Assembly (NCBI RefSeq): GCF_031199965.1 | Contig: NZ_CP133605.1 | Coordinates: 4,248,501 to 4,312,500, forward strand | Direction of reading: 5' to 3' | DNA: 64,000 nucleotides | Origin: Paenibacillus sp. D2_2 | GTDB lineage: Bacteria > Bacillota > Bacilli > Paenibacillales > Paenibacillaceae | Shown: one piece after another, positions 2,951 to 41,393 of the stretch | How the letters are laid out: the number at the start of each line of letters is the position of its first letter | Position numbering within the stretch: position 1 is the stretch's first letter | Made by a program: the position numbers and the translations under genes | The notes under the pieces: model-generated | The model's input: only the letters and a program-made list of their open reading frames with translations | What the model was told of the DNA's origin: nothing | Database searches by the model: none

Positions 2951-5132
2951 AATATCGACTTCCTTCCACTCTTCCTTTCAAGGCCCCAGAGGCTCCAAGC
3001 GTCTTCGCTACTCCCGGAAGGAACCATAGTGGCATCGAGACGCTTACTCCTCCTCTTAAGTAAGTCGCACGCTGTTCCACGGGAATTCCGGTATTCATAC
3101 GAATCAGCGCAAGCATCCGAGACAGCCTCCGCTCACTTGTTCCATGCATCAGCAGGAAGATACGCAAATGATCCCTATAGGTCAACTTCACCTTGATAAA
3201 TTCACTGAGCTCAATGCTTCCTTCCTTAGTTAGCGTCAACATGTCCTTCGTAGCATGCTGGATTCCATACAGCAAAGCAGCAGCAAGAATCAGCAGTGGA
3301 TTGCCTTTATTTAAATTTTTCAGCAATCCTTCCATCGTTCGAATTGCAAGACGCAACGCGAATATCTCTCCATAAGCCGCAGCAATGTTTCCCGTCGGAT
3401 TATGAAAACCGTACAATATGTATTCAACCTCTTGCTTTCCAGGCGCAAACGAGTCACCTATAGTGTCAATCACCCCAGAACCCTCACTGTGCATCAATTC
3501 ATCCAAGGTGCTTATATCAAATAGCGGATAGTAATGTACGACATATTCTCCCTGAAGAGCTGCATCTGTCATCGATTGTAGTACACTGGACATTCCACCA
3601 AAGAAGACATCCATCCCACTCATCGCCTCGGCTCCGGCATCGGCCGGATCACCCCTGTTCCAAACCCACCCTCATCCCCGGTGGAGAGTGATTGATTAAA
3701 CTCGAGATTATCGTTATATAAGGTCTGTAGCTCATCAAATTGCTTCTGTGCATCCACAAGTTTATCTTTGAGTGCGGAGATCTTTCCTATCAGCCCCTTC
3801 GCATCCTTAAGCGATGCTTCTGCTTGGTTCTCGATCGTTTTACGCTCCTGGTCAGAGGCGCGATGTTGTTCGAGCAGACTTTTGTTAGCATCAAGGATAT
3901 TGCTACTTCCCGAATCCACATATTTAAGTAAATAAACATCTGTTGAGTGGTCAAGACTGCTCACTGCTGAAGATAAAGAGTAGTCCGAGATTGAAGCTGT
4001 AAGAACCGAGCCCTCTAAACCTAGAAAAGAACTTACCTCGGCATAGAACAAATTAAAATCAGCTTCCTGCTGGCCGATATCCTTCTCCAAACCAGCAAGT
4101 AGTTCAGCGGTAAGAAGCAACGAACCACTCTGCTCGCGGATAGCGGCGATCTCATCATTGGTAACTGCCTCGTTATCACTGAGACCTTCATGTGAAGCTA
4201 CGTCATCGTAGCCATCAAGTACGGGTCGATGCTCTGCTTCTTCAATCGTCCTCTTCATCTGGTCATTGATAACGATAACTTCTTGAAGCAGTTTTCTCGC
4301 ATCAGGAAGAAGCACAGCATGACGCTCCGAAGCCTTCTGCCCACTGCGCCCAAACCGCTAAACACCCCCGAGGCCATCGATTGGTACTTTTGAATATAAA
4401 ACAAGTACTCCTCCTCTTCCTCAGGGTCCCTTAACTTTTCCTCTTTGTACCTTGCTGCATAGTTCGAATATTCCTGGGCTACGTATGAAGCTGTCGCTCC
4501 ACCGCCAGATGATCCACTAGAGGCACCAGAACGTGGGATTAGCACAGCAATATTATTCACGGTTAACGCCGCAGAACGCTGCTTCTCTAGCATCTCATCC
4601 AACTTGGCTTCCCGTTGATCGTACAACTTCTGCAACTTGCTAAGCAGGTCGACGGTATTCGAAGCTTCTTTCATTACCTTCGACATCGGCTTGAAACGAT
4701 TAATGATCTCTATTGCAAAATCTATGGGAGCCTTATATTTCATTTCTTCGCGGATCTGTTGTTCGAATACTTCATAAGTTCCTATCGGCCGCAGAAGTTC
4801 AACGGTCGATGAATCTAGCCTTGCTTTCATCAGCGGAATATCATCGCTCCGCTTCGATAAATCCATCTGGTCCTGCAACACCTTAGACATAATATAATTT
4901 GCATCAGTGTTCCCAAATGCAAATAAACCATATTGCTCCACCAGCTGCGGGTCATAAGAGGACAGGACCGACCTTGATGCAGAATGGGTCATCATCTCCG
5001 TCTTAGCCTGCAGCGCCGCCATTCTTGCAAAATCAATAAATATCGACACAAATGCGAATATCGAGGCGAATATAACGACTAGAAACACGGTAACAGCTCC
5101 GCTCTCCGCCTGATGTCGCTGTTTTTAAACAC
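2919..5132 (-). CDS. DUF5702-type Tad locus protein, three apparent frameshifts
   Basis: Reconstructed ~738-residue membrane-anchored protein. A GTG at 5132 follows an AGAGGGG site. Reading it requires one extra base at the A-run complementing 5122-5126 to give the start VFKKQRHQAESGAVTVFL, followed by a hydrophobic anchor (FLVVIFASIFAFVSIFIDF). A second break at about 4335 links ...GLGAVGR to KASERHAVLLPD. A third at about 3658 restores NRGDPADAGAEAMSGMD. Each is repaired by one added base in a short A run and no internal stop remains. Coiled-coil-rich middle, further hydrophobic stretches near the end. The family is known to me only as a conserved partner in Gram-positive Tad loci; function unknown. 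Confidence 0.75.
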
Positions 5133-37922: not shown

Positions 37923-38223
37923 GAGATCATCCCCTCTGCAGTTTGATTTCCTAAACTGATACATGTCTATGAGGGAACTTGGCCGATTATGCAGACTAGC
38001 TTGACAAGCCGGAGAGGGCTGTACATAAATCAGGCGAATACAAGGGCAACGACTGATCTAAAAACGATGAAATAGCCTATAGAACAGTTTGTAGGAGTAC
38101 AGCATACTGTATGTCAGATCATTCAATTTGGCTTTCAGCATTCATTTTTCATTCGATTTAATACAAAAAAAGATGTTGACAAATGAAAAAATAAGGTCTA
38201 CGATGACGTTGGAAATTAAAGAC

Positions 38224-38395
38224 GTCCTCGTTAGGTGAGGCTCCTATATAAACACAGGCCACTGCCCAGAAATATCGAAAGATGCCTATGGGTAGAACAG
38301 GGATTGCCGGATTAAGGCTTTTCATAAGGTGGCTAAGAGGTCGAAGCTCGACTTTCTTTACGTTGTATAGTGCCAAAACTCGACTAGGGGGAAGC
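38224..38395 (+). promoter_or_regulatory. M-box (ykoK) magnesium riboswitch
   Basis: Conserved M-box core is readable in order: CCTCGTTAGGTGAGGCTCCT, ACTGCCCAGAAATATCGAAA, ATGCCTATGGGTAGAACAG, TAAGG, and the closing TATAGTGCCAAAACTCGAC. It senses Mg2+ and here sits in front of mgtA, with a terminator as expression platform. The preceding 37923-38200 stretch holds no gene I can support. Confidence 0.95.
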
Positions 38396-38423
38396 AGGCT
38401 CAGTTTATTTGTGTGTCTACTAA

Positions 38424-38454
38424 TCCCTCTAGGTGAATGCCTGGAGGGTTTTTT
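38424..38454 (+). terminator. M-box expression-platform terminator
   Basis: CCCTCTAGG-TGAATG-CCTGGAGGG then six Ts, 30 nt after the aptamer. Mg2+ binding should favour it. Confidence 0.9.
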
Positions 38455-38476
38455 AATGCAAAAGGGGGAACAAACA

Positions 38477-38635
38477 GTGGACAGTAGTCCGAGTTATCGA
38501 TTATGTAAATTCACTTTCAAATCTGTACTGGGGGAGATACGTTCACTTGCCCTCCTATCAATACCTTACTTATTCCTCCCGCGAAAAAAATCTTTTCTCA
38601 AGGGTCTATTTAAGTACGCGTATATGACATGGTAA
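38477..38635 (+). CDS. Putative 52-codon leader peptide between M-box and mgtA
   Basis: GTG start 8 nt after a strong AGGGGG site, reading VDSSPSYRLCKFTFKSVLGE and ending ...KYAYMTW, TAG-free to TAA/TGG-adjacent stop at 38633-38635. Basic with a hydrophobic middle (RSLALLSIPYLFLP). It lies after the first and before the second terminator. An ATG at 38456 is also in frame. Not a family I know. By analogy with Salmonella mgtL it may couple translation to a second attenuation step, but this is inference. Confidence 0.4.
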   Translation: MDSSPSYRLCKFTFKSVLGEIRSLALLSIPYLFLPRKKSFLKGLFKYAYMTW

Positions 38636-38656
38636 TGCATCGGAACGGTTCAGATC

Positions 38657-38690
38657 AGGCTCTCTCTGGAAACAGAGAGGGCCTTTTTTT
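38657..38690 (+). terminator. Second terminator upstream of mgtA
   Basis: GGCTCTCTCTG-GAAA-CAGAGAGGGCC then seven Ts, only 57 nt before the mgtA start. mgtA transcription from the M-box promoter must pass it, or a second promoter exists between 38690 and 38748. Confidence 0.88.
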
Positions 38691-38747
38691 GTGTCCTCCC
38701 AACTGAACTGAGTAAGCGGCGTATCGTACGCCCAAGGAGGAATTGTT

Positions 38748-41393
38748 ATGAACAAATTGAACAAGTTGAAAAAAGACAAAATGACGAAAGAAATTGCTGA
38801 ACGTCTCATTCAAGCATCGATTTCTATGGAAGAGGATATTCTGGATGATCTCCAGACCCAGCATCAAGGACTTAGTGAAGCGGAAGCTAAAAAAAGACTT
38901 GAGACAACCGGAAAAAATGAGATTGCCCACGATAAGACACCAGCTTGGTATATCCAACTGCTTGCCTGCTTTAAAAATCCGTTTATTCTGATCTTGCTAT
39001 TCCTGGCTGCATTCTCCTATTTCATGGACGATGATATTGAAGCGGTCGTCATCATCACTACGATGGTTACCATCAGCGTTATCATTACATTTACGCAAGA
39101 GTTTCGTTCGTCGCGGACAGCAGAGAAACTAAAGGCGATGGTTAAAACAACCTCAGCCGTGACCCGTCAATCGGCACAAAAAGAAATCGATATGGAGCTT
39201 CTAGTACCTGGCGACATTATTCATTTATCGGCAGGCGACATGGTACCTGCTGATGTAAGGCTACTCCAGTCTAAAGATTTACACGTTGGTGAATCAGCTC
39301 TGACCGGGGAAGCTATGCCTGTTGAGAAGTTGGATACAATTCCGCGCGGAACATTAAAGATGTATAACAAGCCGCATAATAAACCGCTGAATGCTCTAGA
39401 GCTTAACAATATTTGTTATATGGGCACCAATATCATCAGTGGTTCGGCCACCGGCGTTGTCTTATCGACCGGATCCGATACTTACTTCGGATCGATGGCC
39501 AGTACACTTGTCGGAAAACCGCCTCTCACTAGCTTTGATAAAGGCATTAAGAGCATTACCTTCGTCCTGGTTCGCTTTATGATGATCATGGTTCCTATTA
39601 TTTTTGTCATCAATGGGTTCACCAAAGGGGACTGGTGGGACGCCCTCTTGTTTGGCTTATCAATTGCAGTAGGATTGACCCCAGAAATGTTGCCTGTAGT
39701 TGTCGCCGGAAATCTCGCTAAGGGTGCAGCTACCATGGCTAAAAATAAAGTGGTTGTGAAGCGCCTTAATGCGATCCAAAACTTAGGCGCGATGGATATT
39801 CTGTGCACCGATAAAACGGGAACATTAACCCAAGATAAAATTATTCTCGAAAAGCATCTAGACATTACAGGCAATGAAAATAAGAAGGTGCTAGAATACG
39901 CGTATTTGAACAGCCATCATCAAACCGGACTTAAAAATCTGCTCGACGTCGCCGTGCTGGAGCATGCCGAGCTTAACCAAATTACAGGAGTAGAGGATAA
40001 CTATATTAAAATCGATGAAATTCCATTTGATTTTAACCGCCGTCGCATGTCGGTCGTGCTTGAGAAAAAAGGAAACGGCCACACCCTAGTCTGTAAGGGA
40101 GCGATGGAAGAAGTACTTGGTATCTGTTCATATGTAGAGGAGAACGGAGCATATATCCCATTGACTGAGGAATATATCAACAAAGTACAAAGCCTCGTCG
40201 ATCACATGAATCATGACGGCTTGCGGGTACTTGCTGTTGCCGTAAAACATAGCGGAGCCAGAGAAGAAGCCTACGGTGTAGCGGATGAGAAGGAGCTTGT
40301 TCTTGTCGGCTTCCTTGCTTTCCTTGATCCACCAAAGGAAACTGCCAAAACAGCCATTCTTGCCCTTAAAGAAAACGGCATCGAAGTAAAGGTAATCACA
40401 GGCGATAATGAAGCAGTTACCAGAAAGGTTTGTAAAGATGTAGGAATTAAGATCAACGATTTGCTGCTAGGCAGCGCCATTGATGAATTAACAGATGAAC
40501 AGCTTGCTGAAGTTGCAGAGCGGACAACGGTATTTGCCAAGGTGAATCCATTGCAAAAAGCAAGAATCGTTCGGGTATTAAAGAGCAAGGGGCATACTGT
40601 CGGCTTTATGGGAGACGGAATCAATGACGCCGTATCTTTAAAAGAAGCAGATGTAGGGATTTCCGTAGATACGGCCGTCGATATTGCTAAGGAATCTGCA
40701 GATATTATTCTGCTCGAGAAGAGCTTAATGGTCTTGGAGCAAGGCGTCATTCAAGGTCGTATCACCTTCGGCAACATGATCAAATATATCAAAATGACAG
40801 CGAGCTCGAACTTCGGAAATGTGTTCAGCGTGCTGGTTGCTAGCGCCTTTATTCCTTTTCTTCCGATGCTGCCTATTCATTTGCTGATTCAAAATTTGTT
40901 TTATGATATTTCGCAGCTCTCCATCCCTTGGGATCGAATGGATAAAGAATATTTGCGTAAGCCACAAAAATGGAATGCTAAATCTGTTAGCCGATTCATG
41001 ATATTTATTGGTCCGATCAGTTCCATTTTTGATATCACAACCTATGCATTAATGTGGTATATCTTCTCGGCGAACTCCATCGATCATCAAACTCTGTTCC
41101 AATCTGGATGGTTTATTGAAGGTTTGCTGTCACAAACGCTCATCGTTCACATGATCCGGACCGAGAAAATACCGTTCTTGCAAAGCAGAGCCAGTGCCCC
41201 TGTCATTCTGTTAACCGCTTTGATCATGGGATTGGGTATTTTCATTCCATTCAGCAGCTTCGGATCTAGCCTCGGTCTTGAGCCATTGCCGATGAGTTAT
41301 TTCCCTTGGCTCGTAGTAACCTTGTTGTGCTACTGCGTGTTAACCCAAATTATCAAGAAGTGGTATATCCGTAAATTCAACGATTGGCTGTAA
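38748..41393 (+). CDS. mgtA: Magnesium-importing P-type ATPase MgtA
   Basis: 881 residues, intact. P-type ATPase class III B: phosphorylation motif ILCTDKTGTLTQDK at residue ~355, TGE in GESALTGEAMPVEK (~185), hinge GFMGDGINDAVSLKEADVGI (~625), and ten predicted membrane helices. The start has AAGGAGG 7 nt upstream. Imports Mg2+ when it is scarce. Controlled by the M-box and the second terminator described above. Ends 12 nt before the reading frame of a trpS remnant. Confidence 0.97.
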   Translation: MNKLNKLKKDKMTKEIAERLIQASISMEEDILDDLQTQHQGLSEAEAKKRLETTGKNEIAHDKTPAWYIQLLACFKNPFILILLFLAAFSYFMDDDIEAVVIITTMVTISVIITFTQEFRSSRTAEKLKAMVKTTSAVTRQSAQKEIDMELLVPGDIIHLSAGDMVPADVRLLQSKDLHVGESALTGEAMPVEKLDTIPRGTLKMYNKPHNKPLNALELNNICYMGTNIISGSATGVVLSTGSDTYFGSMASTLVGKPPLTSFDKGIKSITFVLVRFMMIMVPIIFVINGFTKGDWWDALLFGLSIAVGLTPEMLPVVVAGNLAKGAATMAKNKVVVKRLNAIQNLGAMDILCTDKTGTLTQDKIILEKHLDITGNENKKVLEYAYLNSHHQTGLKNLLDVAVLEHAELNQITGVEDNYIKIDEIPFDFNRRRMSVVLEKKGNGHTLVCKGAMEEVLGICSYVEENGAYIPLTEEYINKVQSLVDHMNHDGLRVLAVAVKHSGAREEAYGVADEKELVLVGFLAFLDPPKETAKTAILALKENGIEVKVITGDNEAVTRKVCKDVGIKINDLLLGSAIDELTDEQLAEVAERTTVFAKVNPLQKARIVRVLKSKGHTVGFMGDGINDAVSLKEADVGISVDTAVDIAKESADIILLEKSLMVLEQGVIQGRITFGNMIKYIKMTASSNFGNVFSVLVASAFIPFLPMLPIHLLIQNLFYDISQLSIPWDRMDKEYLRKPQKWNAKSVSRFMIFIGPISSIFDITTYALMWYIFSANSIDHQTLFQSGWFIEGLLSQTLIVHMIRTEKIPFLQSRASAPVILLTALIMGLGIFIPFSSFGSSLGLEPLPMSYFPWLVVTLLCYCVLTQIIKKWYIRKFNDWL

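Follow-up and report, generated by a model that had tools for sequence, protein, structure and literature searches.

A Paenibacillus mgtA leader in which an M-box is followed by a candidate leader-peptide attenuator

Switching of the M-box at a terminator-type expression platform is established for this riboswitch family. The enteric mgtA leader has a family of its own in Rfam, Mg_sensor; its leader peptide MgtL acts via a Rho-dependent terminator, and neither its gene nor the mgtCBR leader nor mgtQ is known to carry an M-box. In attenuators of the trp type, a uORF overlaps the antiterminator ahead of an intrinsic terminator, and the amino acids of the pathway are sensed through their codons. 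According to the sections of the source that concern MgtL, the ribosomes translating it drop off at EPDP under low Mg2+, and mgtA comes on (PMC11282234). Asp2 and Glu5 of mgtQ promote mgtB (excerpts of PMC8092293), and such translation abortion is suppressed by high Mg2+ (PMC9718836, also in excerpt). A conserved uORF of Mycobacterium tuberculosis is under the control of an M-box that works with a translational platform and Rho, and its peptide, Rv1805A, is reported to be specific to mycobacteria (PMC12810186). In the open-licence PMC literature, a scope that leaves subscription papers and preprints mostly outside, we found no report linking the M-box with ribosome-destabilising leader peptides.

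The leader of mgtA in the window

The window is a stretch of 64,000 nt of Paenibacillus sp. D2_2 (NZ_CP133605.1, positions 4,248,501 to 4,312,500), and coordinates refer to it. The parts of the mgtA leader are as follows.

38176-38204, + strand: putative promoter (TTGACA, 17 nt, TACGAT) upstream of the M-box; sigma-70 consensus match only
38220-38397, + strand: M-box, ykoK-type Mg2+ riboswitch aptamer (RF00380, 144.4 bits, E 1.1e-32)
38425-38454, + strand: terminator 1, the predicted M-box expression platform (stem 38425-38448, then U-run; terminator scan)
38463-38469, + strand: Shine-Dalgarno (SD) sequence of the uORF, AGGGGGA (SD duplex -10.9 kcal/mol)
38477-38635, + strand: uORF, GTG start at 38477, TAA end at 38635, 52 codons, peptide MDSSPSYRLCKFTF... 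(from the list of ORFs)
38528-38658, + strand: proposed antiterminator, a long imperfect hairpin with its base formed by 38528-38555 (in the uORF) and 38631-38658 (folding; covariation in relatives)
38602-38627, + strand: conserved linear motif GGGTCTATTTAAGTACGCGTATATGA, within the 3' strand of the antiterminator (comparison of relatives)
38657-38690, + strand: intrinsic terminator 2 (12-bp stem 38657-38684, U-run to 38690; -22.0 kcal/mol)
38734-38740, + strand: SD sequence of mgtA, AAGGAGG (from the sequence)
38748-41393, + strand: mgtA, Mg2+-translocating P-type ATPase, 881 aa (TIGR01524, 1326.6 bits; PF00122)

The preliminary description, made from the letters of the window, had named an M-box ahead of mgtA, a 52-codon ORF of no known family with a strong ribosome site after the M-box terminator, and a second terminator only 57 nt ahead of mgtA, and all of these were recovered. 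The RF00380 match covered the model over its full length (1-169) against a gathering score of 44 bits, and the genome carries a single M-box at the search threshold. By analogy with the family, terminator 1 is the predicted Mg2+-switched platform of this M-box. AGGGGGA lies directly upstream of the uORF, whose N-terminus, MDSSPSYRL, holds one acidic residue and one proline among its first ten residues (Asp2 and Pro5); the peptide gave no Pfam or NCBIfam match at E 0.001. The U-run of terminator 2 ends 57 nt ahead of the mgtA start at 38748. Between 37000 and 39500, terminator-like matches numbered 6 vs 2.1 expected from shuffles, of which three were overlapping versions of terminator 2 and one lay on the opposite strand. 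The sigma-70 consensus scan of the same region listed one site vs 5.1 expected by chance, and none in 38690-38748, where a separate promoter of mgtA had been named as a possible objection; such a scan is weak at excluding promoters. At gathering scores, cmscan over the window returned RF00380 and four tRNAs only, with no match to the enteric mgtA leader family.

The 3' base of the proposed antiterminator, 38631-38658, corresponds to the flank of terminator 2 and the first bases of its 5' arm, and most of the hairpin is covered by the uORF. When the transcript 38455-38668 was folded, a structure of -47.4 kcal/mol was obtained, in which 38528-38555 pairs with 38631-38658; here, in the absence of the 3' arm, part of the 5' arm of terminator 2 (38661-38667) pairs with the SD of the uORF. 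With the uORF part blocked, the same transcript folded at -27.3 kcal/mol. After synthesis of the 3' arm the equilibrium lies about 20 kcal/mol on the side of terminator 2, so that antitermination would need to be kinetic and the choice would be made while RNA polymerase sits between the two arms.

The uORF, terminator 2 and the proposed antiterminator in relatives

M-box places were gathered with RF00380 in 47 of 394 genomes of the same family, in 25 of 104 genomes from a second family of the same order, and in a class sample (101 of 299 genomes) and a phylum sample (88 of 249). The first three samples gave 219 loci for analysis (80 + 29 + 110). In the same-family sample 79 of 80 rows were used, one weak place being left out, and G074 from another family was added; in the second family 29 of 40 places were used, one being under the cut-off and 10 without loci. 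The class sample contributed 110, and seven were left out: two were present in the set before, G672 was one member of a tandem pair, and the scores of G717, G654, G718 and G726 equalled those of kept genomes. From the phylum sample 30 loci were analysed. A leader was called long when the main gene starts at least 150 nt past the M-box, as in 185 of the 219 loci. Some loci carry more than one M-box: L124 and L149 (G164) are two places in one genome with tandem M-boxes about 324 nt apart, and in L104 two M-boxes stand back to back (4161-4335 on the - strand, 4506-4678 on the + strand) before divergent genes, the + strand one leading to a uORF and a terminator. By eye, M-box leaders also precede response regulator-, RodA/FtsW-like and class I aldolase-like genes, and therefore the controlled gene set seems wider than transporters.

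From every long leader we took the small ORF whose SD was strongest, ignoring its codons, with a cut-off of -8 kcal/mol. Such an ORF was found in 169 of the 185 long leaders, and in this unselected set codon 2 was acidic in 126 of 169 (Asp 113, Glu 13). The controls gave 14 of 214 for the main genes, 13 of 112 for other SD-preceded ORFs (top three) of the same leaders, and, on the reverse strand, 17 of 177 at any SD and 2 of 29 at an equally strong SD. After removal of near-duplicates the count was 117 of 152. The phylum sample behaved alike: 20 of its 30 loci had long leaders, 19 of these a strong-SD uORF, and 16 of the 19 uORFs an acidic codon 2, with N-termini such as MDADPEP, MDADPDD and MESDDD. 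Among the 43 of 169 with a non-acidic codon 2, some are of the EPDPEP or IDDHPEP type.

The N-termini seen include MDGSPS, MDPEPN, MDPDPS, MDSSPEP, MDADPEP, MDADPDD, MESDDD, EPDPEP and IDDHPEP, and the N-terminus of the window's uORF recurs in relatives as M-D/E-S/G/D-S/G-P/S-S. Past codon 2 the 169 uORFs were not enriched in acidic residues (0.074 vs 0.058 in the main genes at residues 3-6, and 0.089 vs 0.136 at residues 7-12), and therefore only some of the families clearly show an acidic run that would destabilise the ribosome. What marks residues 3-6 is Ser/Gly (0.55 vs 0.044 in the main genes) and Pro (0.126 vs 0.015).

Terminator and antiterminator were analysed in 138 leaders picked for an SD-preceded uORF with an acidic codon 2, a set that takes in some likely chance ORFs (e.g., L076 and L205). 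Terminator 2 was present in 78 of the 138, and not found in the other 60, vs 4 of 48 long leaders without such a uORF. L089, L098 and L206 were removed by hand from the 78, leaving 75 loci. Across these, terminator 2 lies 185.7 nt (sd 9.3) from the uORF start and 38.2 nt (sd 14.4) from its stop, and the uORF itself has 32 to 62 codons. The leaders with an acidic uORF and terminator 2 are represented by 47 cluster representatives, in which codon 2 is acidic throughout (GAC 30, GAT 12, GAA 5) because the 138 leaders had been picked for it. In these, frame 0 was open for 31 codons in all 47, and the other frames in 14 and 3; codon 5 was Pro in 20, with all four Pro codons used, and Ser in 18, and conservation was limited to about six N-terminal codons.

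The 26-nt motif found at 38602-38627 in the window recurs in 59 of the 75 loci in any reading frame (31, 20 and 8 in the three frames), and its consensus contains stop codons in two frames. A peptide-level constraint over the entire uORF was rejected, since this motif near the uORF end is read in three frames. TTNTTT is the NusG pause motif (excerpt of PMC8060035); as an account of the conserved motif it is weak, the first T of TTNTTT being present in 25 of 59. A small hairpin inside the motif was, by eye, broken in several rows. A perfect 6-mer complement of the motif core was found within the uORF in 11 of 34. In 42 of 47 the whole region 70-26 nt ahead of terminator 2 outdid shuffled sequence in pairing with the uORF, and the motif seems to be conserved beyond what pairing alone needs.

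RNAalifold, run on an mgtE and an mgtA group, suggested a pairing between the central part of the uORF and the flank that directly precedes terminator 2. When the duplex of uORF positions +55 to +125 with the 26 nt before terminator 2 was calculated for the representatives, own partners gave -16.6 kcal/mol vs -12.5 for swapped ones, and own beat swapped in 43 of 47 (p 4e-11). With the flank and the 5' arm together the count was 38 of 47 (p 1e-8). When only the 5' arm was used it was 29 of 47 (p 0.0075), and this pairing is weakly specific because the 5' arm and its uORF partner are both nearly invariant. The intended control, uORF 20-55 with flank and 5' arm, was itself weakly positive (own better in 30 of 47, p 0.011), and therefore shuffles were used, against which the pairing of uORF nt 1-55 with the flank was flat. 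Against shuffles the duplex of uORF and flank was better in 41 of 47 (p 3e-10), and three control segment pairs were flat (p 0.86, 0.47 and 0.78).

The folds agreed with the duplexes. For the stretch between uORF +50 and the terminator's 5' arm the mean z was -3.28, with z of -2 or lower in 37 of 47, vs a mean of -0.26 and 6 of 47 for length-matched coding controls. In 47 of 47 the uORF paired with 10 nt or more of flank and 5' arm; the fraction with at least 17 nt was 0.89 observed, 0.24 shuffled and 0.40 swapped (47 representatives), and that with at least 4 nt of the 5' arm was 0.96, 0.33 and 0.70, respectively. Pairs that were changed and kept include GUUCUCCUUAC with GUAAGGAGAAC in L054 and GGAACUCGUU with AACGAGUUCC in L063. 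Hence, in relatives, the predicted antiterminator and the intrinsic terminator would be mutually exclusive; the antiterminator of the window is among the weaker ones (fold z -1.52, duplex z -1.23), and for the window alone the signal is weak. Both the peptide (Asp2, Pro5) and the antiterminator of the window are weaker than those of the group.

Comparison of the relatives shows that the uORF, the acidic codon 2, terminator 2 and the predicted antiterminator pairing go together. Conservation of the ORF and of the second terminator had been proposed as a check of the two-step description, and both recur in the M-box leaders of relatives. The likeness to the dual control of enteric mgtA, built here on an M-box, is thus supported by the association of terminator 2 with acidic uORFs, by the conserved antiterminator overlapped by the uORF, and by the many N-termini that resemble the EPDP drop-off motif of MgtL.

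In ten leaders with EPDPEP-like peptides, the consensus fold joins GGCAGUCGGG of the uORF to CCUGACUGCC; judged by eye, the latter has the SD region of the main gene as its other partner, and a translational version of the control is possible in this group. In the EPDPEP-like leaders L043, L044, L045, L065-L067, L074, L075, L086, L143 and L144, alternative helices may either mask the main gene's SD or expose it. In the family f24, the uORF MDSPHSSMSEE extends as far as the SD of mgtE, whose product, from its N-terminus, we take to be like MgtE of B. subtilis.

Proposed mechanism and rival explanations

We propose that the leader consists of two transcription attenuators in series, both serving the control by Mg2+, and give this reading a probability of roughly 0.6. 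The steps would act in series because the uORF lies downstream of terminator 1. In step 1, the Mg2+-bound M-box would let terminator 1 form, and under low Mg2+ RNA polymerase would read on. In step 2, ribosomes would load on the uORF. If the uORF were translated in full, terminator 2 would form and mgtA would be off, because the translating ribosomes would melt the antiterminator hairpin, which the later half of the uORF makes with the stretch leading to terminator 2; if translation aborted or stalled in the first codons, the hairpin would form and capture the 5' arm of the terminator, so that mgtA would be transcribed. Abortion would take place at the Asp or Glu of codon 2 with the Ser, Gly and Pro that follow, as in MgtL-like leaders, and would be favoured by low Mg2+. 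The acidic start followed by Ser/Gly/Pro suggests, by analogy, a Mg2+-dependent destabilisation of the ribosome. We infer that Mg2+ triggers step 2, that the response runs in this direction and that the uORF is translated in the cell; the case for a Mg2+ response of the uORF is strongest where a relative carries several acidic residues.

The chief rival to the Mg2+ trigger is some other signal that acts through the ribosome. The leader would then be a leader-peptide attenuator of the same build that responds to amino-acid or tRNA supply, to slow initiation or to general translation stress, and the early Asp, Ser, Gly and Pro codons would be the stall or drop-off site for that other signal. The evidence for antiterminator and uORF fits this account equally, and it would also suit residues 3-6, which are rich in Ser/Gly and Pro and not in acidic residues. 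However, the uORF start appears to be tied to Mg2+. When its start and SD pattern was searched for with no M-box required, 20 stretches were found among 84,980 genomes, and 9 of these had an M-box just upstream by Rfam (L104, L105, L106, L108, L109, L110, L112, L114 and L120; labelled Brevibacillus in three cases, Paenibacillus in three, and Cohnella, Paenibacillaceae bacterium and 'Bacillus sp.' in one each). Of the 11 stretches without an M-box, five (L107, L111 and L117-L119, four labelled Clostridium and one Hathewaya) are the starts of proteins of about 430 residues that begin MD[SG]SPS behind a G-rich SD; those of L107 (1596-2891) and L111 (5703-7001) match CNNM and CorC_HlyC in Pfam, and the other three are alike by eye. 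The CNNM/CorC_HlyC family is linked to Mg2+ transport, and these five stretches, like the nine with an M-box, argue against a trigger other than Mg2+. So do the acidic and proline runs of several families, e.g., EPDPEP, DADPDD and ESDDD. We consider such a trigger unlikely, at somewhat better than an outside chance. The remaining stretches (L113, L115, L116, L121, L122 and L123) are short ORFs or lack the usual start. The MD[SG]SPS start of the CNNM/CorC-like proteins may be chance, or a drop-off signal heading a main gene.

Three further accounts are each much less probable. The uORF could encode a small protein whose target is the transporter or lies elsewhere, terminator 2 being incidental; the strong SD would suit this, and for the mycobacterial M-box uORF Rv1805A a functional peptide has been proposed (PMC12810186, in the section cited). 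Only about six N-terminal codons are conserved, however, the later part crosses the motif in three frames, and the length varies between 32 and 62 codons in 75 loci, all of which make this account improbable. We regard as slightly less probable still that terminator 1 is followed by another riboswitch with a ligand to bind, the ORF being a by-product. The conserved linear motif and the strong structure would be expected of one, but a permissive Rfam scan of 38390-38760 returned only two matches, both under gathering scores (an L10 leader, E 0.049, over terminator 1, and a flavivirus element, E 4.9). In addition, the ORF is open in a frame-specific manner with Pro and Ser codons mixed, and the helices vary in sequence, yet their own partners fit best. 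The same very low probability is given to terminator 2 as a back-up terminator of the M-box behind an untranslated uORF. In the window, terminator 2 is indeed more stable than its competitor; against this account stand the SD, the open frame, the constant spacing, the antiterminator and the association of terminator 2 with acidic uORFs.

Comparison with known leaders

The two-attenuator reading of the window extends to a wider proposal, for which we put the odds just short of even. Throughout Bacillota, M-box mRNAs would commonly have a second Mg2+ sensor, this one based on the ribosome: a leader peptide with acidic and proline residues, encoded a short way past the aptamer. In lineages like Paenibacillus this peptide would control an intrinsic terminator; in others, among them genomes like that of Bacillus subtilis with their mgtE leader, it would probably act on the SD of the main gene. 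What textbooks describe as the M-box would then make up the first half of a switch with two sensors, and Gram-positive bacteria would have arrived at the MgtL strategy by convergence. If this were true, one transcript would check Mg2+ twice, via RNA folding and via the stability of the ribosome, and the MgtL strategy would reach beyond enterics. M-box reporter data that cover the downstream leader would need to be re-examined, tests of the rules that govern ribosome drop-off could draw on a large natural collection of candidate Mg2+-destabilised peptides, and there would be a testable hypothesis for the role of the mycobacterial M-box uORF Rv1805A.

With the M-box family (RF00380) the window shares the aptamer and terminator 1, whereas the downstream uORF and the second terminator lie outside the family model. 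As in the MgtL leader of E. coli and Salmonella, in the sections of the source that deal with it, a short ORF stands ahead of mgtA, with early acidic and Pro residues that in the window come down to Asp2 and Pro5, and the logic proposed here is the same: mgtA stays off when translation is completed and comes on at drop-off (PMC11282234). Unlike MgtL, the window has an intrinsic terminator and an M-box, and its peptide carries one early Asp and no EPDP; the leader is therefore likened to the MgtL type in its working, and is not placed as a member of it. The mgtCBR leader of Salmonella has tandem attenuators, as proposed here (PMC3641672, in excerpt). The likeness to mgtQ would lie in the destabilisation of the ribosome, which in mgtQ takes place at Asp2 and Glu5, although mgtQ is intergenic and works on the translation of mgtB (PMC8092293, in the part cited).

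The M-box uORF2 of M. tuberculosis pe20 (Rv1805A) also follows an M-box, its N-terminus is its conserved part and it has a Pro at position 7, but it works with a translational platform and Rho, and its mapped leader ends, as given in the cited excerpt, are not at canonical intrinsic terminators (PMC12810186). In the ilvB leader the uORF overlaps an antiterminator ahead of an intrinsic terminator, as is proposed here; that uORF differs in sensing the supply of amino acids through codons of those of the pathway, as the cited part of its source describes (PMC11109978). The proposed arrangement is that of a leader-peptide attenuator joined to an M-box: both parts are of known kinds, and within the open-licence PMC literature their combination appears to be new.
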